DNA from: Pseudomonas fluorescens
Lineage (GTDB): Bacteria; Pseudomonadota; Gammaproteobacteria; Pseudomonadales; Pseudomonadaceae
Direction of reading: 5' to 3'
DNA length: 64,000 bases
NCBI RefSeq assembly: GCF_001623525.1
Contig: NZ_CP015225.1
Location: forward strand, 4,290,501-4,354,500
Part shown: one piece after another, positions 23,323 to 33,590 of the stretch
Layout: every line of letters starts with the position of its first letter
Numbering within the stretch: the first letter of the stretch is position 1
The notes under the pieces: model-generated
Told to the model about the DNA's origin: nothing
The model's input: only the letters and a program-made list of their open reading frames with translations
Database searches by the model: none
Translations under genes and position numbers: made by a program

Positions 23323-23949
23323 ATGACCACTTCCTACAACCGCCTCGACAAAGATAACGCCGCCGTTCTGCTGGTCGATCACCAAGCCGGCCTGCTGTCT
23401 CTGGTACGCGATATCGACCCGGACCGCTTCAAGAACAACGTGCTGGCCCTGGCCGACCTGGCGAAGTACTTCCAACTGCCGACCATCCTCACCACCAGCT
23501 TCGAAACCGGCCCCAACGGCCCGTTGATGCCCGAGCTCAAGACCCTGTTCCCGGATGCGCCGTACATCGCCCGTCCTGGCCAGATCAACGCCTGGGACAA
23601 CGAAGATTTCGTCAAGGCGATCAAGGCCACCGGCAAGAAGCAACTGATCATCGCCGGTGTGGTCACCGAAGTCTGCGTAGCCTTCCCGGCACTGTCGGCC
23701 CTGGCCGAAGGTTTCGAAGTGTTCGTGATCACCGATGCGTCCGGCACGTTCAACGAGCTGACCCGTCAATCGGCCTGGGACCGCATGTCGTCCTCGGGTG
23801 CGCAACTGATGACCTGGTTCGGCCTGGCCTGTGAACTGCACCGCGACTGGCGCAACGACGTGGAAGGGCTGGCGACCTTGTTCTCCAACCACATCCCGGA
23901 CTACCGCAACCTGATGACCAGCTACAACACGCTGACCAGCGCAAAATAA
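23323..23949 (+). CDS. YcaC-like isochorismatase-family hydrolase
   Basis: A 208-residue cysteine hydrolase of the isochorismatase fold, the same length as E. coli YcaC, with which it shares the opening YNRLDKDNAAVLLVDHQAGL and the catalytic segment VVTEVCVAF. Catalytic Asp19 and Cys118 are present; the third catalytic position (normally Lys) falls in the YIARPGQINAW segment. YcaC proteins form octamers and their substrate is unresolved; amides or carbamates are likely for the fold. A GAGGA site precedes the ATG. The gene is divergent from the LysR regulator at 22210-23115, suggesting control by it, and ends just before a strong terminator. Confidence 0.88.
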   Translation: MTTSYNRLDKDNAAVLLVDHQAGLLSLVRDIDPDRFKNNVLALADLAKYFQLPTILTTSFETGPNGPLMPELKTLFPDAPYIARPGQINAWDNEDFVKAIKATGKKQLIIAGVVTEVCVAFPALSALAEGFEVFVITDASGTFNELTRQSAWDRMSSSGAQLMTWFGLACELHRDWRNDVEGLATLFSNHIPDYRNLMTSYNTLTSAK

Positions 23950-23964
23950 CCCGCGACGCAGCCC

Positions 23965-24005
23965 CCCCTGTGGGAGCGAGCTTGCTCGCTCCCACAGGGG
24001 TTTTT
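23965..24005 (+). terminator. Intrinsic terminator built from a REP palindrome, after the ycaC-like gene
   Basis: A near-perfect 16-bp stem CCCCTGTGGGAGCGAG/CTCGCTCCCACAGGGG (loop CTTG) is followed by TTTTT. The core GTGGGAGCGAGCTTGCTCGC is the REP sequence of this genome, extended by a GC clamp and a U-run. Confidence 0.85.
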
Positions 24006-24062
24006 GTGGTGGTTTCTATATAGTGTTCAATCTGTGCCCATGATTTTCTGGAGACCGACCTG

Positions 24063-24485
24063 ATGCTGATCCCCTGCCCCCATTGCAACGGGCTCAATCG
24101 CATACCCGCCGAACGCCTGGGCGACCAACCCAAATGCGGGCGCTGCAAAGCCCAGGTGTTATTGAACAAACCGTTCGAACTCAAGCAAGGCGACTACACC
24201 AGCCAGATCAAAGGCGACCTGCCATTGCTGGTGGATGTATGGGCCGATTGGTGTGGGCCGTGCAAGTCCTTCGCCCCGGTGTTCGAACAGGCCGCCGCGC
24301 AACTGACGGGCAAATGCCGCTTGGCCAAGCTCGACAGCGAGGCCAATCAGCAGTTATCGGCACAGTTGGGGATCCGCTCGATTCCCAGCCTGATTCTGTT
24401 CAAGGATGGCCGGGAAGTGGCACGTCAGAGCGGTGCGTTTCCGTTGCCGCAATTGATGAGCTGGTTGCGCAGCCAGGGGATTTGA
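24063..24485 (+). CDS. trxC: Thioredoxin 2 (TrxC)
   Basis: TrxC is a cytoplasmic disulfide reductase induced in oxidative stress. The 140-residue product has the diagnostic N-terminal zinc ribbon (Cys5/Cys8 in CPHC, Cys25/Cys28 in CGRC) and a thioredoxin domain with the active site WADWCGPCKSF (Cys64, Cys67) and the cis-proline loop GIRSIPSLILFKDGREV. Length and layout match the family. It is transcribed away from the ycaC-like terminator and converges with the imide operon, whose last gene ends only 3 bp after the trxC stop. Confidence 0.95.
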   Translation: MLIPCPHCNGLNRIPAERLGDQPKCGRCKAQVLLNKPFELKQGDYTSQIKGDLPLLVDVWADWCGPCKSFAPVFEQAAAQLTGKCRLAKLDSEANQQLSAQLGIRSIPSLILFKDGREVARQSGAFPLPQLMSWLRSQGI

Positions 24486-24488
24486 TGT

Positions 24489-25685
24489 TCATCGGCCTTT
24501 GTTGGCCGCACGCAGAAAATCCCCCCAACGCCGCACCAGGTAGTTGTGCTCGTCCATCACCGAGTTCCACACGGCGATATGGCCCATGCGTTGCTCATAC
24601 GAACCGCCGTCGCGCATTTCGCCGATGTCGATCAAGGGTTCGCCATCGCTGCCTGGCAACACTTCACGGGCCGGTTTGCCGGCGTACCAATAGTCCCATT
24701 CGGCATCGCTCAAATGATCGCGGCTGCGGGGTGGGTTGCTGATGTAATAACCCTGGCGCGCCATGACCGCGCCAGGCCATCCCGAGAGCCACCAATTAAG
24801 GAACGCATAGGCAGCATCCAGCACCGCTCCCCGGGCATGGCGTGACACGGATAGCCCGCCGAACCAGGCGCGATAGCCTTCACGGGGCACGGCGAGGCGG
24901 TACTTGATCCCGGCCCGATGCAGGCGCATGAGGGTCGGTGACCAGAGGCTCTCGATGTCGATGGTCGGGCTGAGCATCAGTTGCGCCGCCTGTTCGTCAT
25001 CTGACCAGAACGCCGCGAAATGGCCTTCGCGCTGTTTGCGCACCAATACGTCGGCCAGGCTGTCGATCTCTTCGATGCTGAGATTGCCGATGTCCTTGAA
25101 CGACGCCAACCCCATGCCCTGTATCGCCAGCGCCGCATCGATGGCGCCAATTGCCGCGTCGCTTTGCAGCGCGGTGCGCCCGCTCCAGGCCGGATCGAGC
25201 AGCCAGCCCCAACTTTCGTTGTCACGGGAAAAACCCGCCGGCAAGCGTTCCGGGCGGTAGGCAAAACTGTCGGCGTTGTGGGTCAACGGCAACATGCTGA
25301 TGTAGTCGCTGACGGTGCTGCCCAGGCTGCCGTCGTGTTGCACGTACAGGCGCTCATTGGGCACGCTGCCGCTGACCGGGCGATCCGCGGCGGACAACCG
25401 GCCGCGCTTGGGCAGGTCATTGATCTCGTGCCACAGCGCGATGCGCCGTGTGTCGATGGGCTGGATCGCGCGTGCTGGCCAGACGAAATCAACGTTGTGA
25501 AACCACTGGTCGTAAAGGTCGTAGCTGTCCGGTTGCATCACCGCAATGCGCTGGGCCTGCTCGACACTGTGGACCTGATAGACCAGGCGAATGCCAAGGT
25601 CCTGTTCGGCGCGAACCCGCAGGGATTCGAGGAGCGTGACGGAGGTGCCAAGCACCCGCAACGTGATGGGCGTGCCGCGGGTCAT
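24489..25685 (-). CDS. Leaderless extracellular-solute-binding-type protein (PotD-like fold)
   Basis: A 398-residue protein resembling type 2 periplasmic binding proteins of spermidine/putrescine or polyol ABC transporters (early strand ITLRVLGTSVTL, later LMLSPTIDIES and AAYAFLNWWLSGWPGAVMARQ). Unlike true binding proteins it has no signal peptide: the N-terminus is MTRGTPITLRVLG, directly at the first strand. No ABC permease or ATPase is nearby. It is the last gene of the eight-gene operon and overlaps the CobW gene by 1 bp (TGATG). It may be a cytoplasmic ligand-binding protein, or use a non-Sec route, or have lost its leader. Function unresolved. Confidence 0.7.
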   Translation of the reverse strand: MTRGTPITLRVLGTSVTLLESLRVRAEQDLGIRLVYQVHSVEQAQRIAVMQPDSYDLYDQWFHNVDFVWPARAIQPIDTRRIALWHEINDLPKRGRLSAADRPVSGSVPNERLYVQHDGSLGSTVSDYISMLPLTHNADSFAYRPERLPAGFSRDNESWGWLLDPAWSGRTALQSDAAIGAIDAALAIQGMGLASFKDIGNLSIEEIDSLADVLVRKQREGHFAAFWSDDEQAAQLMLSPTIDIESLWSPTLMRLHRAGIKYRLAVPREGYRAWFGGLSVSRHARGAVLDAAYAFLNWWLSGWPGAVMARQGYYISNPPRSRDHLSDAEWDYWYAGKPAREVLPGSDGEPLIDIGEMRDGGSYEQRMGHIAVWNSVMDEHNYLVRRWGDFLRAANKGR

Positions 25686-26689
25686 CAGGCGCTCACCTCA
25701 ACCGCCGGTGCGAAGCAACGGGCGAAGACATCGAACGAATGCCGCAACCGCTCCGGATCCAGGCCCCTGACGATAAATACCAACCGCGATTGGCGTTCGG
25801 CACAGGGCCAGTGGGGCAAGTGTACCGGTGCGTGCAGGCAATGCTGCACGCCATGGATGACGACTGGGGCCTGGAGGCTGTTCACGTTGAGCAATCCCTT
25901 GACGCGAAGAATGCGTTCGCCGTGGCATCTTAGCAGCATCGACAACCAGACTCCGAAGCCGATCCAGTCCAGCGGCTGATCGAAGGTCAGGCAGCAAACC
26001 TGTGCCTGGCCATGCTGCGTGACCTGGCCCTGCGGACGATGCAATTGCCAACGGGCCACCTCGACTTCAGGCGTGGCGCCACGCAGACCTTCGCCCAACA
26101 ATAATTGATCGCCACTGAGCACGTCGTGAGTGTCGAGCAGCGGCGCCCCCGGGTTCAGCGCTTGCAGCCGTTGACGCAACGCGCTGACAACCGGCGCAGC
26201 GACCTGATCAGTCTTGCTCAGCAGCAGGCGATCCGCGGCGGCCACCTGGGCCAGCCACTCCGGGTGAATACGCGCCTGCAACTCGGCGTGACAGGCGTCT
26301 ACCAGCGTCACCACCAAGCCAATGTGGAAGCGCCCGCGCAACTGCACGTCGTTGTTGAGTGTCGCCAGGATCGGCGCCGGATCGGCCAGCCCGGTCGTCT
26401 CCAGAATCACCCGTCGAAAAGCCGGGATCTCTCCTCGGTCACGCCGTGCCAGCAGATCGAGCAACGCGTCTTTCAACTCGCCGCGGATGGAACAGCAGAC
26501 GCATCCGCTGGGCAACAACACGGTGTCCGGCGCCACTTCCTGGACCAACAAGTGATCGATGCCGATGTCGCCGAACTCATTGATCAGCAGCGCTGTGTCA
26601 CCGAGGCTTTCGTCTTGCAGCAGACGGTTGAGCAAGGTGGTCTTGCCGCTGCCGAGAAACCCGGTCATGACGTTCAAGGCGATGCTCAT
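25685..26689 (-). CDS. CobW/COG0523-family GTPase, putative metal chaperone
   Basis: A 334-residue P-loop GTPase of the COG0523 group, which hands Zn, Co or Fe to client enzymes. Walker A GFLGSGKTTLLNRLL is at residues about 10-24, followed by NEFGDIGIDH, the metal-binding GCVCCSIRGEL (CxCC) motif near residue 65, ETTGLADPAPIL and the guanine-specificity SKTD. The C-terminal CobW_C domain carries scattered His and Cys (VIHGVQHCLHAPVHLPHWPC). The start at 26689 overlaps the preceding 99-aa gene by 4 bp (ATGA). Placement in an operon with a metal-dependent deacetylase-fold hydrolase suggests that enzyme as the client; this is inference. Confidence 0.88.
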   Translation of the reverse strand: MSIALNVMTGFLGSGKTTLLNRLLQDESLGDTALLINEFGDIGIDHLLVQEVAPDTVLLPSGCVCCSIRGELKDALLDLLARRDRGEIPAFRRVILETTGLADPAPILATLNNDVQLRGRFHIGLVVTLVDACHAELQARIHPEWLAQVAAADRLLLSKTDQVAAPVVSALRQRLQALNPGAPLLDTHDVLSGDQLLLGEGLRGATPEVEVARWQLHRPQGQVTQHGQAQVCCLTFDQPLDWIGFGVWLSMLLRCHGERILRVKGLLNVNSLQAPVVIHGVQHCLHAPVHLPHWPCAERQSRLVFIVRGLDPERLRHSFDVFARCFAPAVEVSA

Positions 26690-26985
26690 GAGCCCTGCTC
26701 CAAAGACTGGAGCAGGGCCGGATCGAGAGGGTCCGCCGCGCGGCCCGACATCGACTCGGCCAGGCTCCACAGCTGGTCGAGCCCACTGGCCAGTTCCTGC
26801 CGCCCGGTGGCGCCCAGCAGCAGATAGGCCGTGCCCTGGAAATCCTCGACCTTGAGCCGTAACGGCGCCAACACACGGTTAATCGCCGAAATCCGCCGCA
26901 ACCGCTCACGACGCCGGGGCAGTTCATCACCCAGCGGATCACTCCAGTGGACGTCCTCGCCCAATAGACCGCACAAGCCACACAT
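26686..26985 (-). CDS. 99-aa protein with N-terminal MCGLCG motif, function unknown
   Basis: A small protein starting MCGLCGLLGEDVHWSDPLGDE and followed by a predicted helical body (RERLRRISAINRVLAPLRLK, LLGATGRQELASGLDQLWSL). The opening CxxC and the general MCG[IL]xG look resemble class II glutamine amidotransferases, where Cys2 is the nucleophile, but 99 residues cannot form that domain. A metal or cofactor site using Cys2 and Cys5 is possible. It has a good AAGGAG site and overlaps the CobW gene by 4 bp, so the two proteins are probably made in step. I do not recognise a described function. Confidence 0.7.
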   Translation of the reverse strand: MCGLCGLLGEDVHWSDPLGDELPRRRERLRRISAINRVLAPLRLKVEDFQGTAYLLLGATGRQELASGLDQLWSLAESMSGRAADPLDPALLQSLEQGS

Positions 26986-26999
26986 GCTTCAGCACTCCT

Positions 27000-27749
27000 T
27001 CATGGCATGACGTCGCCAGCGTTCGGTCCCAGGGTTTGCCCCACGAACAGGTTGCCCCCTGGGTCACTGGCCAGCAGGACGGCGGTGGGCGCCACTTCCG
27101 TGGCCAAGCCGAAGCGTCGCAAAGGCAGTTCGGCGGACTTGGCCTGTTTCCAGCTTTCGCTGATGCCGGCCACCAGCGGTGTTTCGATCGGCCCAGGGGC
27201 GATGGCATTGACCAACACGTTGTCGGCCGCCACTTCCAGGGCCAGTGACTTGGTAAAACCGATCACACCGGCCTTGGCCGCCGCGTAGTGGCTGAGCTCG
27301 GCCCCGCCTTTGATGCCCAATTGCGAGGCGATGTTGATGATCCGCCCCCAGCGCTGCGCCAGCATATGTGGCAAGGCTCGCTGGCTGGCGATGAACACGC
27401 TGGTCAAGTCGACCCGGAGCATGTCGTTCCACATCTCGATACTCAACTCGGTGCAGCGCGCCTGGGTCAGCATGCCGGCGTTGTTGACCAGGATATCGAT
27501 ACCGCCAAAGTGCTCGACGCACGCATCGACCCCAGCCTGGGCCCCTTCGAGCGTGCCGACATCGGCCACGCACTCGTGCACCTCGACCGCCAACGCGCGA
27601 CAGTCATTTGCGGTGGCGGTCAAGCGTTCTGCATCACGATCGGCCAGTACCAGGCGCGCGCCTTGCTCGGCATAGGCTCGCGCGATAGCGGCACCGATGC
27701 CGCTGCCGGCGCCGGTGATCACGGCGCGGCGGTTGAACAGTTGCTGCAT
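27000..27749 (-). CDS. Short-chain dehydrogenase/reductase (first of two)
   Basis: A 249-residue classical SDR, NAD(P)-dependent. It shows the cofactor motif TGAGSGIGAAIA near residue 13, NNAG at about 87, and the catalytic Tyr-x3-Lys in HYAAAKAGV, then AIAPGPIETPL. The aspartate of LVLADRD after the second strand favours NAD over NADP. The ATG at 27749 has a GGAGGG site; an upstream in-frame ATG at 27779 has none. It lies 14 bp before the 99-aa gene and 70 bp after the second SDR in the same operon. The substrate is unknown; a hydroxy- or oxo-acid derived from the amide product is possible. Confidence 0.85.
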   Translation of the reverse strand: MQQLFNRRAVITGAGSGIGAAIARAYAEQGARLVLADRDAERLTATANDCRALAVEVHECVADVGTLEGAQAGVDACVEHFGGIDILVNNAGMLTQARCTELSIEMWNDMLRVDLTSVFIASQRALPHMLAQRWGRIINIASQLGIKGGAELSHYAAAKAGVIGFTKSLALEVAADNVLVNAIAPGPIETPLVAGISESWKQAKSAELPLRRFGLATEVAPTAVLLASDPGGNLFVGQTLGPNAGDVMP

Positions 27750-27819
27750 GGGAGAACCCTCCAGATCCAGGACAAACATGGATTACCATCCATGGAAAAC
27801 AAAACCCGTGACGCCCTCT

Positions 27820-28581
27820 TCAATCCGGCCAACGCACGGTCAGGCCGCCATCAATGATGATGCTTTGGCCCGTCAGGTAGCTGGACTCATCGCCGGTCAG
27901 GAACCGCACCAGCGACGCCACCTCATCGGCCCGGCCGACTCGCCCCAGCGGAATCGCCCGGGCCGCCTTGGCCAGGCCTTCGGGCCCGAGGGAATTTTGA
28001 CTGTCCAAGGACTGCGGCGTCTCGATCAGGCCCGGGATCACCGCATTGCAGCGAATGCCCTGCCCGGCCAACTCCACCGCCAGCGAACGGCATAGGCCCG
28101 GCACACCGGCCTTGGCCGCGGCGTAGTGGGCGTGGTCCTGCCAGCCATATACGCCGCCGGCGATCGAAGAAATCGCCACCAACGCACCGCCCTCGGTCAT
28201 GTAGCGAACGCTGGCGCGGAAGGTGCGCATCACCCCGGTCAGATCGACATCGAGCATGGCGTTCCAGGCCTCGTCGCTCATTTCCAACAGGGGCGCGCGG
28301 CGCAGCAGGCCGGCGTTGGCCACCGCGTAATCAAGACGCCCGAAGGTGCTGAACGCCTGCTCGGCCAGGTTATCCACCGAGCGAGTGTCGGTGACGTCCA
28401 GTGGCAGCATCAGGCATTCGCCACCCAACGCCTCGATCTGTCGGCGGGTGTCTTGTGGGTCGTGAGGGTCCGCTGGCAAGTAGCCTGCGGCCACGGCCAC
28501 ACCGTGGCGGGCATACGCCACGGCAAGGGCCTGGCCGATGCCGCTGGCGGCACCGGTAATCAATGCAACTCTTCGGGTCAT
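27820..28581 (-). CDS. Short-chain dehydrogenase/reductase (second of two)
   Basis: A 253-residue classical SDR with [12 protein letters not shown], a non-acidic residue at the end of strand 2 ([11 protein letters not shown], which suggests NADP or relaxed use), VANAGLL, and the catalytic HYAAAKAGV with [11 protein letters not shown]. It is clearly distinct from the neighbouring SDR, so the pair is not a recent duplication. GGAGGC precedes the ATG at 28581. It is 11 bp downstream of the MFS transporter gene. Two SDRs with different cofactor preferences could epimerise or interconvert a hydroxyl via a ketone; speculative. Confidence 0.85.
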
Positions 28582-28592
28582 GGGGGGCCTCC

Positions 28593-29933
28593 TTACTTCA
28601 CGGTTTCCGGACGGACATGGCGCGCCGCGAACATCAACGCACCGGAGAGGAAACAAGGCAGCGCGCCGAAGTACAGCGCCGAGGTCTGCCAGTTGCCGCC
28701 CGCCGCCAGCACCTGGGTGGCACCGAACCCCGCCACTACCGCGCCGATCGGCCCCATGGCATGGATAATCGCGCCGCCCGTGGCGCGGATACTGGTGGGG
28801 AAACTCTCGCCGATGAAGAACAGCGCCGCCGAATAGGGCCCGATCAGGAAGAACAGGCCCAGGCTGTAGAGACCGACCACCATCGGCAGGTTGCTCGGAC
28901 CGTAGAGCATGCCGGCAAACGACAGCCCGCCCAGCATCCAGCCCAACGCGATGACATTGCGCCGGCCGATCTTGTCGCCCATCCAGCCATGGCTCAGGTA
29001 ACCGCAGTAGCCCACCAGGTTGGAGAGCACCAGGATGATCAACGAGTTTTCGAAGGAGATATGGTGCACGCTGACGATCACCGTCGTGCCGAGCACGCTG
29101 AACACCTGGATCGCCGCCCAGTTGAGCAGGATCGCCGCGCCGATCACCAGTGTCGCGCGCCGCGACGTGCCGCGAAAGGCCGACGCGAGGCCGGCCTTGC
29201 TGTGTTCCTCATAGTCGACGCCATAGGTGGACGCCACTGCCTGGGCATCGGCGACCGCGCCGCTTTTGCGCAACTGGCCGATACGCTGGTGGATCTGGAA
29301 CTGCGGGCTTTCCTTGAGCTTGCGCGCCATGATCGCAATGACGATGGCCGGGATCGCCGCAAAGATAAAACAGCCCTGCCAGCCGATGGTCGGCAGCAAC
29401 ACGGCGGTCAATCCGGCGGCGATCAGCGCGCCCACCGGCCAGCCACCCTGCACCAGGCTGTAGATGAAGCCACGTCGCTTGGCCAGCCTCGGGTCATCGG
29501 AGGCGGCGTAGAGCTCGCTCAGATAGGTGGCATTGACGGTTTCTTCCGCGTAACCCAACCCGCCGAGAGAACGGATCAGGATCAACGGGGACTTGCCCCA
29601 GGCACCGCCGATGGCCGTCAGCGCCGAACAGATCGCCGCGCCGCTGACGGTGAAGATGATCCCCATGCGCCGGCCCAAGCGGTCCACCAGCGGGCCGATG
29701 GCCAACGCCACCACCGCCGTGCCGACCGCTACCCAGGTGGCGATTTCGGCTTGCTCGACTTCGCTCCAATTGAAGTGCCGGCCGATTTCCGGCAACAACG
29801 TGCCGAACAGAATGAAGTCGTAGACCGCAAACACCCAGGCAAAAAAAGCGATCCAGGTGGCGAAGCGCACCTGGGCCGGAGTCAATTGCTCGGGTTTCCA
29901 ACCAGTCAGGTCGAGTTTGTTGTAGATGGACAT
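28593..29933 (-). CDS. MFS transporter (metabolite:H+ symporter type)
   Basis: A 446-residue, 12-TM major facilitator with the family loop motifs [12 protein letters not shown] between TM2 and TM3 and GDKIGRRN in the second half, and the acid-containing TM1 [21 protein letters not shown] typical of aromatic acid, sialate or carboxylate symporters. A cytoplasmic insertion of about 60 residues joins TM6 and TM7. It sits between the imidase-like gene (27 bp upstream) and an SDR gene (11 bp downstream), so it probably imports the operon's substrate or a related organic acid or amide. Confidence 0.88.
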
Positions 29934-29960
29934 GAGAACACGCCTCGATTAAATGCCGGC

Positions 29961-30842
29961 TCAGCGGCTGCGGGGGTTGCGACGAATGAAGTCATTGGCA
30001 ATTTCATCGAACGTGACGAAGCGCACGCCGGCATGGCCCTGGATGTGTTCGATCAGGCGCTCAAGCATCAGCAGCACCTGGGGACGCCCGGAGACGTCGG
30101 GGTGGATGGTCATGGTGAACACGGCATGCTCGTGTTCGCGATAGACCCAGTCGAACTGATCGCGCCACATCTCCTCAAGGTGCCGTGGGTTGACGAAACC
30201 GTGGCTGTTGGGCGATTTCTTGATGAACATCATTGGCGGCAAATCATCGAGGTACCAATTCGCCGGAATCTCCACCAGATCGGTTTCCTGACCACGCACC
30301 AACGGTTTCATCCAGGTGTCCGGGTGCTGGCTGTAGTCGATCTTGGTCCAGCTGTCGCCGACGCGAACATAGTAGGGGTGGAAGTCGTTGTGCATCAGGC
30401 TGTGGTCGTACTTGATGCCTTTCTTGAGCAGCAGCTCGTTGGTCACTTTGCTGAATTCCCACCAGGGCGCGACATAGCCGGTAGGCCGCTTGCCGGTCAC
30501 CTGGGTAATCAACTCGATGGATTTATCAAGCACCGCTTCTTCCTGTTGCGGGGTCATCGCGATGGGGTTTTCGTGGCTATAGCCGTGCACGCCGATCTCG
30601 TGGCCCGCATCCGCCACGGCTTTCATCTGCTCGGGAAAGGTCTCCAGGGAATGCCCGGGCACAAACCAGGTGGTACGCAGGCCGTAGCGCTCGAACAATT
30701 TGAGCAGCCGCGGCGAGCCGATTTCACCGGCAAACAGGCCGCGGGAAATATCGTCGGGCGAATCTTCACCGCCGTAGGAGCCGAGCCAGCCCGCCACGGC
30801 GTCTACATCGACCCCAAATGCACAAAGAATATCTTTAGCCAT
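29961..30842 (-). CDS. Polysaccharide-deacetylase-fold hydrolase, probable cyclic imidase
   Basis: A 293-residue NodB-fold metal hydrolase. The metal triad is in place: Asp14 in FGVDVD and His86/His90 in [10 protein letters not shown], with a late catalytic-type histidine in MTIHPDVSG. Length, these positions and the opening [20 protein letters not shown] agree with what I recall of the 293-residue cyclic imide hydrolase of Pseudomonas putida and of Helicobacter PgdA. There is no signal peptide, so it acts in the cytoplasm, against a role in cell-wall deacetylation. The imidase reaction opens succinimide- or maleimide-like rings to half-amides, which the amidase encoded 37 bp upstream could then deamidate. 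Family certain; imidase activity is inferred. Confidence 0.85.
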
Positions 30843-30879
30843 GATCGGCCTCCGGTTGTGGTGGTGGTTTAAACATCAA

Positions 30880-32241
30880 TCAGGAATTGGCCAGCGTCGC
30901 CTCGACCGAGCGCGCGACTCGCAGGAGCCGCGCATCCTCGCCTTGGGGCACGCTGAGCAGCAGGCCTGTGGGCAGCCCCTGGCTGTCACGGCCGCTGGGA
31001 AGGTTGACGCTGGGCATGTCGAGCAAACTGCCGGGCATCGTCAGCCTCAGGGTGGCGAGATTGGTGCGGACAAACAGTTCGTCATCGGCTTCCAAAGGCG
31101 CCAGCGGCGGGGCGACGTGGGCCACAGTCGGCGTGATCAGCACCGCGCCGTCGAGTTCTTCGACGAGCTGTCGCTGCAAGGCCGAGCGGGCGTCGTAGAG
31201 TTTGAGCACCTGGCTGGCGGTCATCGGCCGCGCCGCTTCGAGCCGTCGGCGTACCCGCGGGTCGAGTCGTTCGGCATCGGCGCTGTCGAGCAAGGCCTCA
31301 TGCAAGGCGAACGCCTCGGCGGCCCCCAGCCAGCCGTGGTCGCGGATCAGCGCAAGGCTGGCCTGGAAAGCCGGCAATGGCCGAATCTCCACCAGCGCCC
31401 CAGCGGTGCGCAGCGCCTGGACACCGGCCAGCACATTGGCCCGCACCGCGGCCTCGACACTGGCATCCTCCAGCACCGCTTGCTCGACCCAGAAACGCTG
31501 CCCGGCCAGGCTGCGCACCGGTGGCGCTTGTCGTGGGTCGCGCCCCTGAAGCAGTTCGTCGATCATCCAGGCGTCACGCACGCTGCGAGTCAACGGGCCG
31601 ATGCTGTCGATGCTGTGGGCCAGGGGAAATACCCCGTCACGACTGTGACGACGGGAACTGGCGCGAAACCCCACCAGAGCGTTGAAAGCCGCCGGGACGC
31701 GGATCGAACCGGCGGTATCGGTGCCCATGGCGATCGGCACGATGCCCGCCGCGACCGCTACCGCCGAACCGCTGGAGGAGCCGCCGGGGATCCGCGGTTG
31801 TGCATCGCTGAACGGGTTGACCGGCGTGCCGAAGTGCGGGTTGAGGCCGAGCCCTGAATAGGCGAACTCGCTGAGGTTGGTCTTGCCCAGGCAGACCATA
31901 CCGGCCCGGCTGAGCAGGCTGACACTGGCGGCGTCCAACAGCGCGGGCGGTGCATCCCGACGCACCGCCGCTGCCGCGGTGGTGACACTGCCGGCCACGT
32001 CGAACAAGTCCTTCCAAGCCAGCGGCACGCCGTCGAAGCCACTCAACGGTTGCCCGGCACGCCAGCGCGCCGCCGAGGCCTGCGCTTCGCGCCGAGCTCG
32101 GGCTTCGGTCAGCGACACGAACACGTGCTCAGCACGCGAGGCTTGCTCCAGCGCTTGCTCCAGCACTTGGACCGGGTCGGTACGCCCCGAGGCGAAAGCT
32201 TCGGCGAGCGCAATGGCATCCGGCGAGGAAAATGCATTCAT
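30880..32241 (-). CDS. Amidase-signature enzyme, probable half-amidase
   Basis: A 453-residue amidase-signature hydrolase. The catalytic Lys77 is in GVPLAWKDLFDVAG, the cis-serine in IPGGSSSGSAV (residues about 155-157) and the nucleophile Ser179 in GTDTAGSIRVPAAF. These enzymes cleave carboxamides to acid and ammonia. First gene of the minus-strand operon, so it is the promoter-proximal partner of the imidase-like enzyme. The start is not certain: ATGs at 32241 and 32253 are both in frame and neither has a strong ribosome-binding site. A related possibility is a general amidase with a different natural substrate. Confidence 0.88.
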   Translation of the reverse strand: MNAFSSPDAIALAEAFASGRTDPVQVLEQALEQASRAEHVFVSLTEARARREAQASAARWRAGQPLSGFDGVPLAWKDLFDVAGSVTTAAAAVRRDAPPALLDAASVSLLSRAGMVCLGKTNLSEFAYSGLGLNPHFGTPVNPFSDAQPRIPGGSSSGSAVAVAAGIVPIAMGTDTAGSIRVPAAFNALVGFRASSRRHSRDGVFPLAHSIDSIGPLTRSVRDAWMIDELLQGRDPRQAPPVRSLAGQRFWVEQAVLEDASVEAAVRANVLAGVQALRTAGALVEIRPLPAFQASLALIRDHGWLGAAEAFALHEALLDSADAERLDPRVRRRLEAARPMTASQVLKLYDARSALQRQLVEELDGAVLITPTVAHVAPPLAPLEADDELFVRTNLATLRLTMPGSLLDMPSVNLPSGRDSQGLPTGLLLSVPQGEDARLLRVARSVEATLANS

Positions 32242-32588
32242 GGGCAACGGCATCCGATAAAACGTATCAATTATTAAAATGTACATTTATGCGGAGCAGA
32301 TTCCGTGCCAGCTACGCTTGAGCCGGAGATACTCATTGAGTTCCCAGGCTCACCAATGGGCCAAGATAACCGGGTTAGAGCCGCGTCCATGTCTTGGACG
32401 ACCACGCCCCTGGTCAAAACCGAAATGGAATGCTTATCTAATGTATGTTTTAAGAAAAGATACATTTAGGTGCACAAAAGTAACGCTTTGATGGAGCGGG
32501 CCCCACGAAAGGGCGCGCCAATGTGACCCTCAGTGACACAGGACACTGTGAGAGAATCCCGCCATCACCGTCACGCCCAGAGGAATCG
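32242..32588. promoter_or_regulatory. Divergent control region between the amidase operon and its GntR/FCD regulator
   Basis: This 347-bp gap is AT-richer than its flanks and contains no gene. A perfect 10-bp palindrome AATGTACATT (32278-32287) lies just upstream of the amidase start, and an inverted repeat AATGTAT-N13-ATACATT (32440-32466) lies in the regulator-proximal half. Both share the ATGTA/TACAT half-site style used by GntR-family proteins, so they are the best operator candidates for the adjacent regulator. Promoter boxes were not assigned. Confidence 0.55.
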
Positions 32589-33590
32589 ATGAAAGCAGCG
32601 CCAGCCCAAGACCCGCGCACCGCATCGCGCTACGCGATGATTCATCAAGTATTGCGTGACGCAATCACCGAGGGCACCGCGCTGCAAGGCTTGGTATTAC
32701 TGGAAGCACCGCTGGCCGAGCTGTTCGGCACCAGCCGTGTGCCGGTGCGCAAGGCGCTGGATCTGTTGCATGAAGAGCGATTGATCAGTCGTTTTGACGG
32801 GCGTGGGTACTTGATCAATCCCCTGGGCCTGGATATCGAGCCGCTGCGCCTGCCCTTGAGCCATGTTCACCTGGGCCTGGCGAGCGGCGAAGAACTGGTG
32901 GACACGCGGCCATTGGGCGAGCGGATTCACGAGGAAATCGGCAGCGCGCTGCTGACCTGCATTACCTTCGGCCACTACCGCCTCGATGAACAAGCCGCCG
33001 CCGAGCATTACGGCGTGAGCCGGGCCGTGGTGCGAGAAGCCTTGATGCGCCTGAGGGATCGGGGCTTGCTGGAAAAAGAACCCTATTCCCAATGGCTGGC
33101 CGGCCCGCTCACCGCCCGTGAAGTCACCGAAGATTATGAATTGCGCGCCTGCCTGGAGCCCGAGGCACTGCGTCAGAGCGCGCCAGGGCTGGGCCGCGAG
33201 CAATTGCAAGCCATGCTGGAGCGGGTGACCCAGGCGCAACAGGCTGAGCATTGCCCGGAAGAGACGATCCAGCGCATCGAGGAAGACCTGCACCAACACT
33301 GCCTCAGCGGCCTGCAAAATCGCAAGATGGCCGCACTGATTCGCCAGGCCCAGAGCCCGATGATCATCAGCCGGATTTTTTCCCGGTTGCTGGGAATCGG
33401 CGCGGACCCCGCCATGCTGGCCGAGCACCGCCTGATCCTGGAGCTGCTGTTACACGGCGCCTTCGACGCCGCCGCGCTGAACCTCAAGGAGCATTTGCAA
33501 CGCGCCCGGCAACGCATGTTGCAGCGCCTCAAGGTGCTGTCTGTGGTGCCGGAGCAAGACTTGCCGCCCTACCTGAGCAAAATCAGCTGA
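32589..33590 (+). CDS. GntR-family regulator with two winged-helix domains and an FCD ligand domain
   Basis: A 333-residue regulator. Unlike ordinary FadR/FCD proteins (about 230-250 residues, one HTH), it has two GntR-type winged helices: residues about 15-78 (IHQVLRDAITEGTALQGLVL, GTSRVPVRKALDLLHEERLI) and about 108-172 (RIHEEIGSALLTCITFGHYR, EHYGVSRAVVREALMRLRDR). The FCD all-helical ligand domain follows (LEPEALRQSAPG, EEDLHQHCLSG, AEHRLILELLLHGAFDAA), with likely metal-binding Asp/His residues. An AGAGGAA site precedes the ATG. Divergent from the amidase operon, it most likely senses an organic-acid product and controls that operon. Confidence 0.87.
   Translation: MKAAPAQDPRTASRYAMIHQVLRDAITEGTALQGLVLLEAPLAELFGTSRVPVRKALDLLHEERLISRFDGRGYLINPLGLDIEPLRLPLSHVHLGLASGEELVDTRPLGERIHEEIGSALLTCITFGHYRLDEQAAAEHYGVSRAVVREALMRLRDRGLLEKEPYSQWLAGPLTAREVTEDYELRACLEPEALRQSAPGLGREQLQAMLERVTQAQQAEHCPEETIQRIEEDLHQHCLSGLQNRKMAALIRQAQSPMIISRIFSRLLGIGADPAMLAEHRLILELLLHGAFDAAALNLKEHLQRARQRMLQRLKVLSVVPEQDLPPYLSKIS

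Follow-up and report, generated by a model that had tools for sequence, protein, structure and literature searches.

The window analyzed here is a 64,000-nucleotide stretch of the Pseudomonas fluorescens genome (contig NZ_CP015225.1, positions 4,290,501 to 4,354,500). Listing of open reading frames (ORFs) and family searches place eight genes on its minus strand, running from 32286 down to 24489, with a divergent regulator gene beside them. The operon stands up as real, coherent and conserved, and its eight genes are likely co-transcribed. By analogy with the fungal HxnW-HxnM-HxnN steps, it likely breaks down a cyclic imide that is derived from a hydroxylated ring compound. The predicted pathway enzymes are accompanied by a 99-amino-acid protein, a CobW-type GTPase and a solute-binding protein that lacks an export leader.

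Predicted pathway enzymes

The 293-residue product of the second gene (29961–30842, minus strand like the other operon genes) is a predicted cyclic imidase with the CE4 fold, belonging to the HP0310/HxnM group. It matches Helicobacter pylori HP0310 (3qbu_A) at full length (545 bits across residues 1–292, 4e-163) and retains all HP0310 active-site residues checked (the metal/catalytic set D12, D14, H86, H90 and H247, together with W127 and W128), whose roles we take from the accessible part of PMC3084791. On the PuuE allantoinase model TIGR03212 it reaches 87 bits against a cut-off of 424.6, which places it outside that family, and an identity as PuuE allantoinase is rejected on this score. The amidase-signature gene (30880–32286; PF01425, 254 bits) encodes a predicted half-amide hydrolase that exceeds the NCBIfam PRK06102 cut-off (688 vs 559 bits) and carries the Lys and Ser motifs KDLFD and GGSSSG. 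Three further predicted pathway genes are a major facilitator superfamily (MFS) importer (28593–29933; PF07690, PF00083), whose best NCBIfam model, an aromatic acid/H+ symporter, is matched far below its cut-off, and two predicted NAD(P)-dependent dehydrogenases of the short-chain dehydrogenase/reductase (SDR) type, SDR1 (27820–28581; PF13561, 217 bits; motifs TGxxxGxG and YxxxK) and SDR2 (27000–27749; PF00106, 200 bits; TGxxxGxG, NNAG and YxxxK).

Candidate metal supply genes

The 99-amino-acid protein (26686–26985), which begins MCGLCG, belongs to no Pfam or NCBIfam family, and no relative was found in the PDB; a protein of Pseudomonas protegens is 90% identical. Across 26 aligned rows, M1, C2, C5, G6, W14, N36, T60, G61, W73 and the DPL triplet at 85–87 are invariant; position 13 is H except in Pantoea and Klebsiella, which have Q. 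Its AlphaFold model (mean predicted local distance difference test (pLDDT) 80.9) falls below 50 at residues 1–6 and 9–14; in this model the conserved N-terminal CxxC...HW tail is the least structured part, and one helix, three strands and two more helices come after it. The adjoining gene (25685–26689; PF02492, PF07683) encodes a G3E GTPase of the CobW/COG0523 type, a predicted metallochaperone with the Walker A motif GxxxxGKT, a CxCC motif and a CobW_C domain, and it matches the YjiA structure 1nij at 7e-43. A flexible, conserved CxxC tail encoded beside a CobW GTPase has the look of a protein that hands over metal, and a dedicated metallation cassette for the imidase is a plausible role for the pair.

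The leaderless binding protein

The last gene (24489–25685) encodes a solute-binding protein of the PotD/PotF fold (14–18% identity to PotD/PotF), predicted to be cytoplasmic; no export signal was recognized by eye or from the reading frame. In 48 of the Pseudomonas loci introduced below (L027, incomplete, was left out), the distance from the first well-conserved stretch (residue 7) to an in-frame stop is at most 10 codons in 27 and at most 20 in 32. In the remaining 16 the frame continues upstream into cobW, and inspection by eye showed nothing resembling a leader there. Relatives occur in 9 of 274 genomes of the class. Reading by eye found a twin-arginine start in 10 of 10 relatives linked to ATP-binding cassette (ABC) or kinase genes and in 0 of 9 imide-cluster copies outside Pseudomonas; two weak partial matches in G265, a partial second match in L077 and the majority of 171 plasmid records were left out of this survey. 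The operon protein may be a relative, retained in the cell, of binding proteins exported by the twin-arginine translocation (Tat) pathway.

Cognate ABC permeases are absent from the eight operon genes. We rejected the idea that the protein belongs to an ABC importer encoded by the operon itself, since the cluster is of the MFS type without an ABC importer and since the ABC importers of Shinella, Rhizobium and Thioclava have an additional Tat-type binding protein of their own. At one locus (L078:8748–11898), a sensor histidine kinase gene directly follows a Tat-type relative, suggesting a periplasmic sensing use of the fold.

Gene boundaries

Several starts were revised. SDR1 most likely begins at ATG 28581 after AGGAGG (ORF open up to 28656), SDR2 at 27749 (open up to 27779) and cobW at 26689 (open up to 26770), where its start forms an ATGA overlap with the stop of the 99-amino-acid gene. 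The cobW and binding-protein genes overlap as TGATG, and this chain of overlaps through the last three genes suggests coupled translation. An amidase start at 32253 or 32241 is likelier than the annotated one, because 32286 falls inside a conserved palindrome (see below). The gaps then measure 37, 27, 11, 70 and 14 bp, alongside the two overlaps. An initial annotation, made from the sequence alone, had described an eight-gene minus-strand run with gaps mostly below 40 bp or overlapping, a divergent GntR/FCD regulator with a double helix-turn-helix and a leaderless binding protein. All nine genes were confirmed in place, several with moved starts, and the remaining points were borne out by the revised gaps, the domain searches and the upstream stops. 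At the far end, a convergent thioredoxin-like gene (24063–24485) abuts the operon; it and an isochorismatase-like gene together span 23323–24485 (labels by eye), and neither lies beside the operon in the listed Pseudomonas loci.

Regulator and predicted operators

The regulator gene (32589–33590, plus strand) most likely starts at ATG 32589 after GAGGA, in a frame open to 32523. Its product is of the GntR/FCD type, with a winged helix and an FCD domain (PF07729), and has an additional second winged helix (PF00392 in two stretches). Two predicted sites lie in the divergent promoter region: the 12-bp palindrome O1, AAATGTACATTT, at 32277–32288, with a degenerate partner at 32260–32271 (by eye), and O2, AAATGTATCTTT, on the minus strand at 32456–32467, with a partner at 32439–32450 (by eye). 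The exact AAATGTACATTT occurs once in the 6.92-Mb single-contig genome, before the operon. We searched 48 intergenic regions, namely those of the window, Pantoea, Klebsiella and 45 of the listed Pseudomonas loci (L009, L020, L025 and L034, which do not hold both flanking genes, were left out). The palindrome is perfect in 36 and present with at most two mismatches in all 48, against averages of 0 and 0.8 after single-base shuffling. In 39 of the 48, a second copy with three mismatches or fewer begins exactly 17 bp further along, and no such copy begins at any of the 18 other offsets between 12 and 30. Paired palindromes would suit a regulator with two winged helices per chain. Ten plasmid loci were read outside the genus. 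Regulator homologues (33–52% identical over ~90% or more of the length) occur in seven and relatives divergent from the cluster operon in eight, the copies in L071 and L072 being cut by the locus end; in Paraburkholderia the regulator lies downstream of the cluster, and no relative was seen in the Skermanella plasmid locus.

Conservation within Pseudomonas

Searching with the 99-amino-acid protein yielded at least 49 Pseudomonas loci, the set to which all statements on listed Pseudomonas loci refer. Gene order is kept wherever a listed locus is long enough, and the imidase is 94–96% identical to that of most of them. Among 149 genomes of the genus, the identical 32 (including that of the window; lists compared by eye) hold the imidase (E up to 1e-100), the 99-amino-acid protein (1e-8) and the binding protein (1e-20), the last split in two pieces in G636; the imidase is 84–96% identical in the other 31. 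The amidase (1e-120) adjoins the imidase in 30 of the 32, and five further genomes encode an amidase at 48–54% identity without the rest of the set. None of the outer neighbours in the window (TrxC-, ParA-, isochorismatase- and LysR-like; labels by eye) recurs in the listed loci (E up to 1e-10). The block therefore sits at differing genome places, and it appears to move as one unit.

Distribution beyond the genus

The complete eight-gene order was found only in Pseudomonas, Klebsiella (L069) and Paraburkholderia (L070). Halomonas (L077) holds all eight rearranged, with an NCS1 transporter, and Pantoea At-9b (L068) has the set without the amidase. The clusters of Shinella, Rhizobium and Thioclava contain an ABC importer with two ATPases and no MFS gene, that of Leisingera carries NCS1, and Acidiphilium (L075) keeps the MFS gene with no amidase seen; an asparaginase, with no amidase match, is present in Thioclava and Skermanella. 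Importers (MFS, ABC, NCS1) and half-amide hydrolases (amidase, asparaginase) thus vary around a core. In another class, 18 of 172 genomes gave an imidase match (E up to 1e-40), eight at 60–80% identity and ten only at 37–42%; the 99-amino-acid protein is present in all eight genomes with a close imidase and in none of the ten with only a remote CE4 paralogue. A ninth genome with this protein, G854 (L138), has its gene beside cobW and a CE4 gene whose product is 31% identical to the imidase.

Outside Pseudomonas, we examined 20 loci that hold an imidase or CE4 gene (L068–L077, L084 and L130–L138), a non-random sample, most of which was fetched because one gene matched. All 20 have the 99-amino-acid protein and CobW in the cluster, and in 15 the imidase/CE4, 99-amino-acid and CobW genes follow in direct order on one strand (by eye; L135 has a gap of ~0.75 kb). 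L078–L083, fetched via remote relatives of the binding protein, hold none of the three, and L088 is too short to show the 99-amino-acid gene. The tightest core outside the genus is the imidase, the 99-amino-acid protein and CobW. All eight genes travel together in Pseudomonas, Klebsiella, Paraburkholderia and, rearranged, Halomonas, as a comparison of neighbourhoods proposed in the initial annotation was meant to reveal, and in the wider sample the core is these three genes. That annotation would have been refuted by imidase and amidase genes that do not travel together; the two lie side by side in nearly all genomes of the genus that encode the imidase, and the pairing breaks down in part outside it.

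Several loci merit description in their own right. The complete operon, read in the Klebsiella plasmid locus L069 (3398–11188), is carried on plasmids in five Klebsiella records at ≥99% identity, whose source is clinical, sewage or not stated; megablast found the operon in 0 of 5,426 Escherichia coli genomes. G771 has two imidase copies (L136, L137), each with its own 99-amino-acid protein and CobW, in differing orientations. At L138:9549–12217, the 31%-identical CE4 gene, the 99-amino-acid gene and cobW lie beside a gene for a protein with two L-PSP stretches; this CE4 protein is possibly another client of the pair. A second, remote cluster of CE4, amidase and urea carboxylase-associated genes with an ABC gene lies a few kb from the core cluster in Leisingera (L073:17426–20873), and a gene for an NADH:flavin oxidoreductase recalling fungal HxnT lies ~4.6 kb past the regulator in Paraburkholderia (L070:16822–17937).

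Proposed pathway

In the fungal pathway, according to the accessible text of PMC9304392, the SDR HxnW makes 3-hydroxypiperidine-2,6-dione, HxnM opens the ring and the amidase HxnN completes the breakdown, removing ammonia; the hxnW-hxnM pair is described as kept across fungi. Applied to the operon, this order accounts for the imidase, the amidase and one of the two SDRs. Uptake of a hydroxylated nitrogen ring compound would fall to the MFS protein, a role that the ABC or NCS1 importers observed in its position may fill in other bacteria. The SDR dehydrogenases would turn the compound into a small cyclic imide, the imidase would open the imide, and the amidase would free ammonia from the resulting half-amide. 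From linkage, motifs and the structure model, we propose that the 99-amino-acid protein and CobW load the active-site metal of the imidase, with GTP controlling how the flexible CxxC tail carries the ion or passes it on. The PotD-fold protein may have the substrate or a pathway intermediate as its cytoplasmic ligand, which is the least certain step of the mechanism. The paired palindromes would be the sites of the GntR/FCD regulator, which would answer to a pathway compound.

Taken as a whole, an imide catabolism operon with SDRs, imidase, amidase, metal pair, cytoplasmic binding protein and regulator is the best explanation of the locus, and we consider it fairly probable. The initial annotation had read the locus as degrading a cyclic imide, and this reading is upheld for the imidase, whose class the HP0310 match and the low PuuE score support, and for the amidase as the half-amidase completing the breakdown, which adjoins the imidase in 30 of the 32 genus genomes that encode it and whose counterpart HxnN acts in series with HxnM. 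It is revised for the SDRs, which were thought to process the carbon skeleton after ring opening and may instead act earlier, making the imide, and the eight-gene set proved not to be general outside the genus. A more specific combination is possible, and we hold it tentatively: that the 99-amino-acid carrier and CobW are a self-contained metallation system for a CE4 imidase, that a binding protein which lost its Tat leader now serves the same pathway in the cytoplasm, and that a two-domain regulator grips palindromes spaced 17 bp apart.

Alternative readings

The same genes could serve a ureide, a hydantoin or a dihydropyrimidine, with an allantoinase- or hydantoinase-like CE4 enzyme opening the ring and the carbamoyl product going to the amidase. 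In favour of this, the core has NCS1 transporters next to it in Leisingera and Halomonas, the Skermanella cluster includes a dihydropyrimidinase, L133 has a Hydantoinase_B gene not far from its core, and the CE4 protein shows weak PuuE similarity. However, the PuuE score is far below the cut-off, HP0310 is without activity on allantoin in the accessible part of its description, the two dehydrogenases have no evident place, and Skermanella has a separate ring opener; we therefore regard this reading as unlikely. Deacetylation of a small N-acetyl substrate, for example an acetylpolyamine, with the PotD-fold protein binding a polyamine, is less probable still, indeed very unlikely. The PotD/PotF fold would suit it, as would the polyamine-type importers to which the HP0310 authors, in the part available, link HP0310 homologues. 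Yet the same partial source gives HP0310 as inactive on N-acetyl putrescine, spermidine and cadaverine, N-acetylglucosamine, chitotriose and N-acetyl dipeptides, and the amidase and SDRs would be left without explanation. We rejected a peptidoglycan or polysaccharide deacetylase because the protein has no leader and because HP0310 is reported, in the portion of the source accessible, as inactive on such substrates.

A further question concerns the metal pair, which might serve another metalloenzyme or general zinc supply, its linkage to the imidase reflecting merely shared regulation. COG0523 proteins have many proposed clients, some Zur-regulated, in the accessible part of PMC2770081. Against this, CE4 and CobW genes lie within ~5 kb of the 99-amino-acid gene in all 20 non-Pseudomonas loci, even in L130–L138, which have few other genes in common, and genomes with only remote CE4 paralogues are without the 99-amino-acid protein, so that we judge another client rather improbable.

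Several findings nevertheless weigh against the imide pathway with its metal pair, binding protein and paired operators. HP0310 was apparently made alone in E. coli and crystallized with a bound ion (partial source), so the 99-amino-acid protein and CobW would be dispensable there. The set is rare at large (an imidase search at E up to 1e-60 matched 6 of 299 genomes of the phylum), and the nine loci of the other class (L130–L138) have no binding protein and only weak SDR matches (29–33%). No amidase match was found beside the imidase in G588 and G696 at the genus threshold, nor any amidase in three listed Pseudomonas loci (L022, L043, L044) or L068. A single loss of the binding-protein leader is not firm (support 69/42). 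The window is among the nine exceptions to the 17-bp spacing because the partner of O1 is degenerate (five mismatches, against three for that of O2; by eye), and over the whole 64 kb its two matches with at most two mismatches were reached by 13 of 100 shuffles, a number not beyond chance.

If the proposed pathway is correct, bacterial breakdown of cyclic imides, patchy in its distribution, gains a concrete gene set and step order. A CobW GTPase would gain a likely client, a CE4 imidase, with an unnamed protein family tied to both, and an importer-type binding protein would be seen working inside the cell. The genome-unique operator would make the regulator and its inducer screenable by reporter.

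Comparison with known systems

Our literature search found no description of such a combination, although its parts are of known kinds. The cyclic imidase of Pseudomonas putida YZ-26 (AAY98498) is presumably of the same 293-residue class as the window imidase. It is cited as a relative of HxnM, and HxnM is 64% identical to a P. putida cyclic imide hydrolase, in the accessible text of PMC9304392. HP0310 (HpPgdA, 3qbu), which the window imidase resembles over its full length and in its active site, is named a peptidoglycan deacetylase and, in the part of its description available, was inactive on all compounds tried, allantoin being the sole imide listed. PuuE allantoinase shares the CE4-like fold and a small ring substrate with the window imidase, and the accessible part of PMC3084791 contrasts it with HP0310 as non-metal-binding. 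The window binding protein, unlike PotD and PotF, has neither an export leader nor an ABC partner in the operon. As in COG0523 partner systems such as the nitrile hydratase activator (PMC2770081, seen in part), a G3E GTPase is tied to a metalloenzyme; the operon differs from those systems in its proposed client, a CE4 imidase, and in the additional MCxxC protein.

A close parallel by described roles is the fungal hxnW-hxnM-hxnN set of Aspergillus nidulans nicotinate catabolism. The operon is without counterparts of HxnS, HxnX, HxnV and HxnT; hxn-type upstream hydroxylase and monooxygenase genes are absent from its eight genes, the rest of the genome not having been searched. Unlike the fungal set, it adds the 99-amino-acid protein, CobW and the leaderless binding protein, none of which is named for fungi in the accessible text. 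Both systems resemble each other in joining SDR, imidase and amidase, which act in series as one inducible set in the fungus (PMC9304392, in the part available) and would do so in Pseudomonas.

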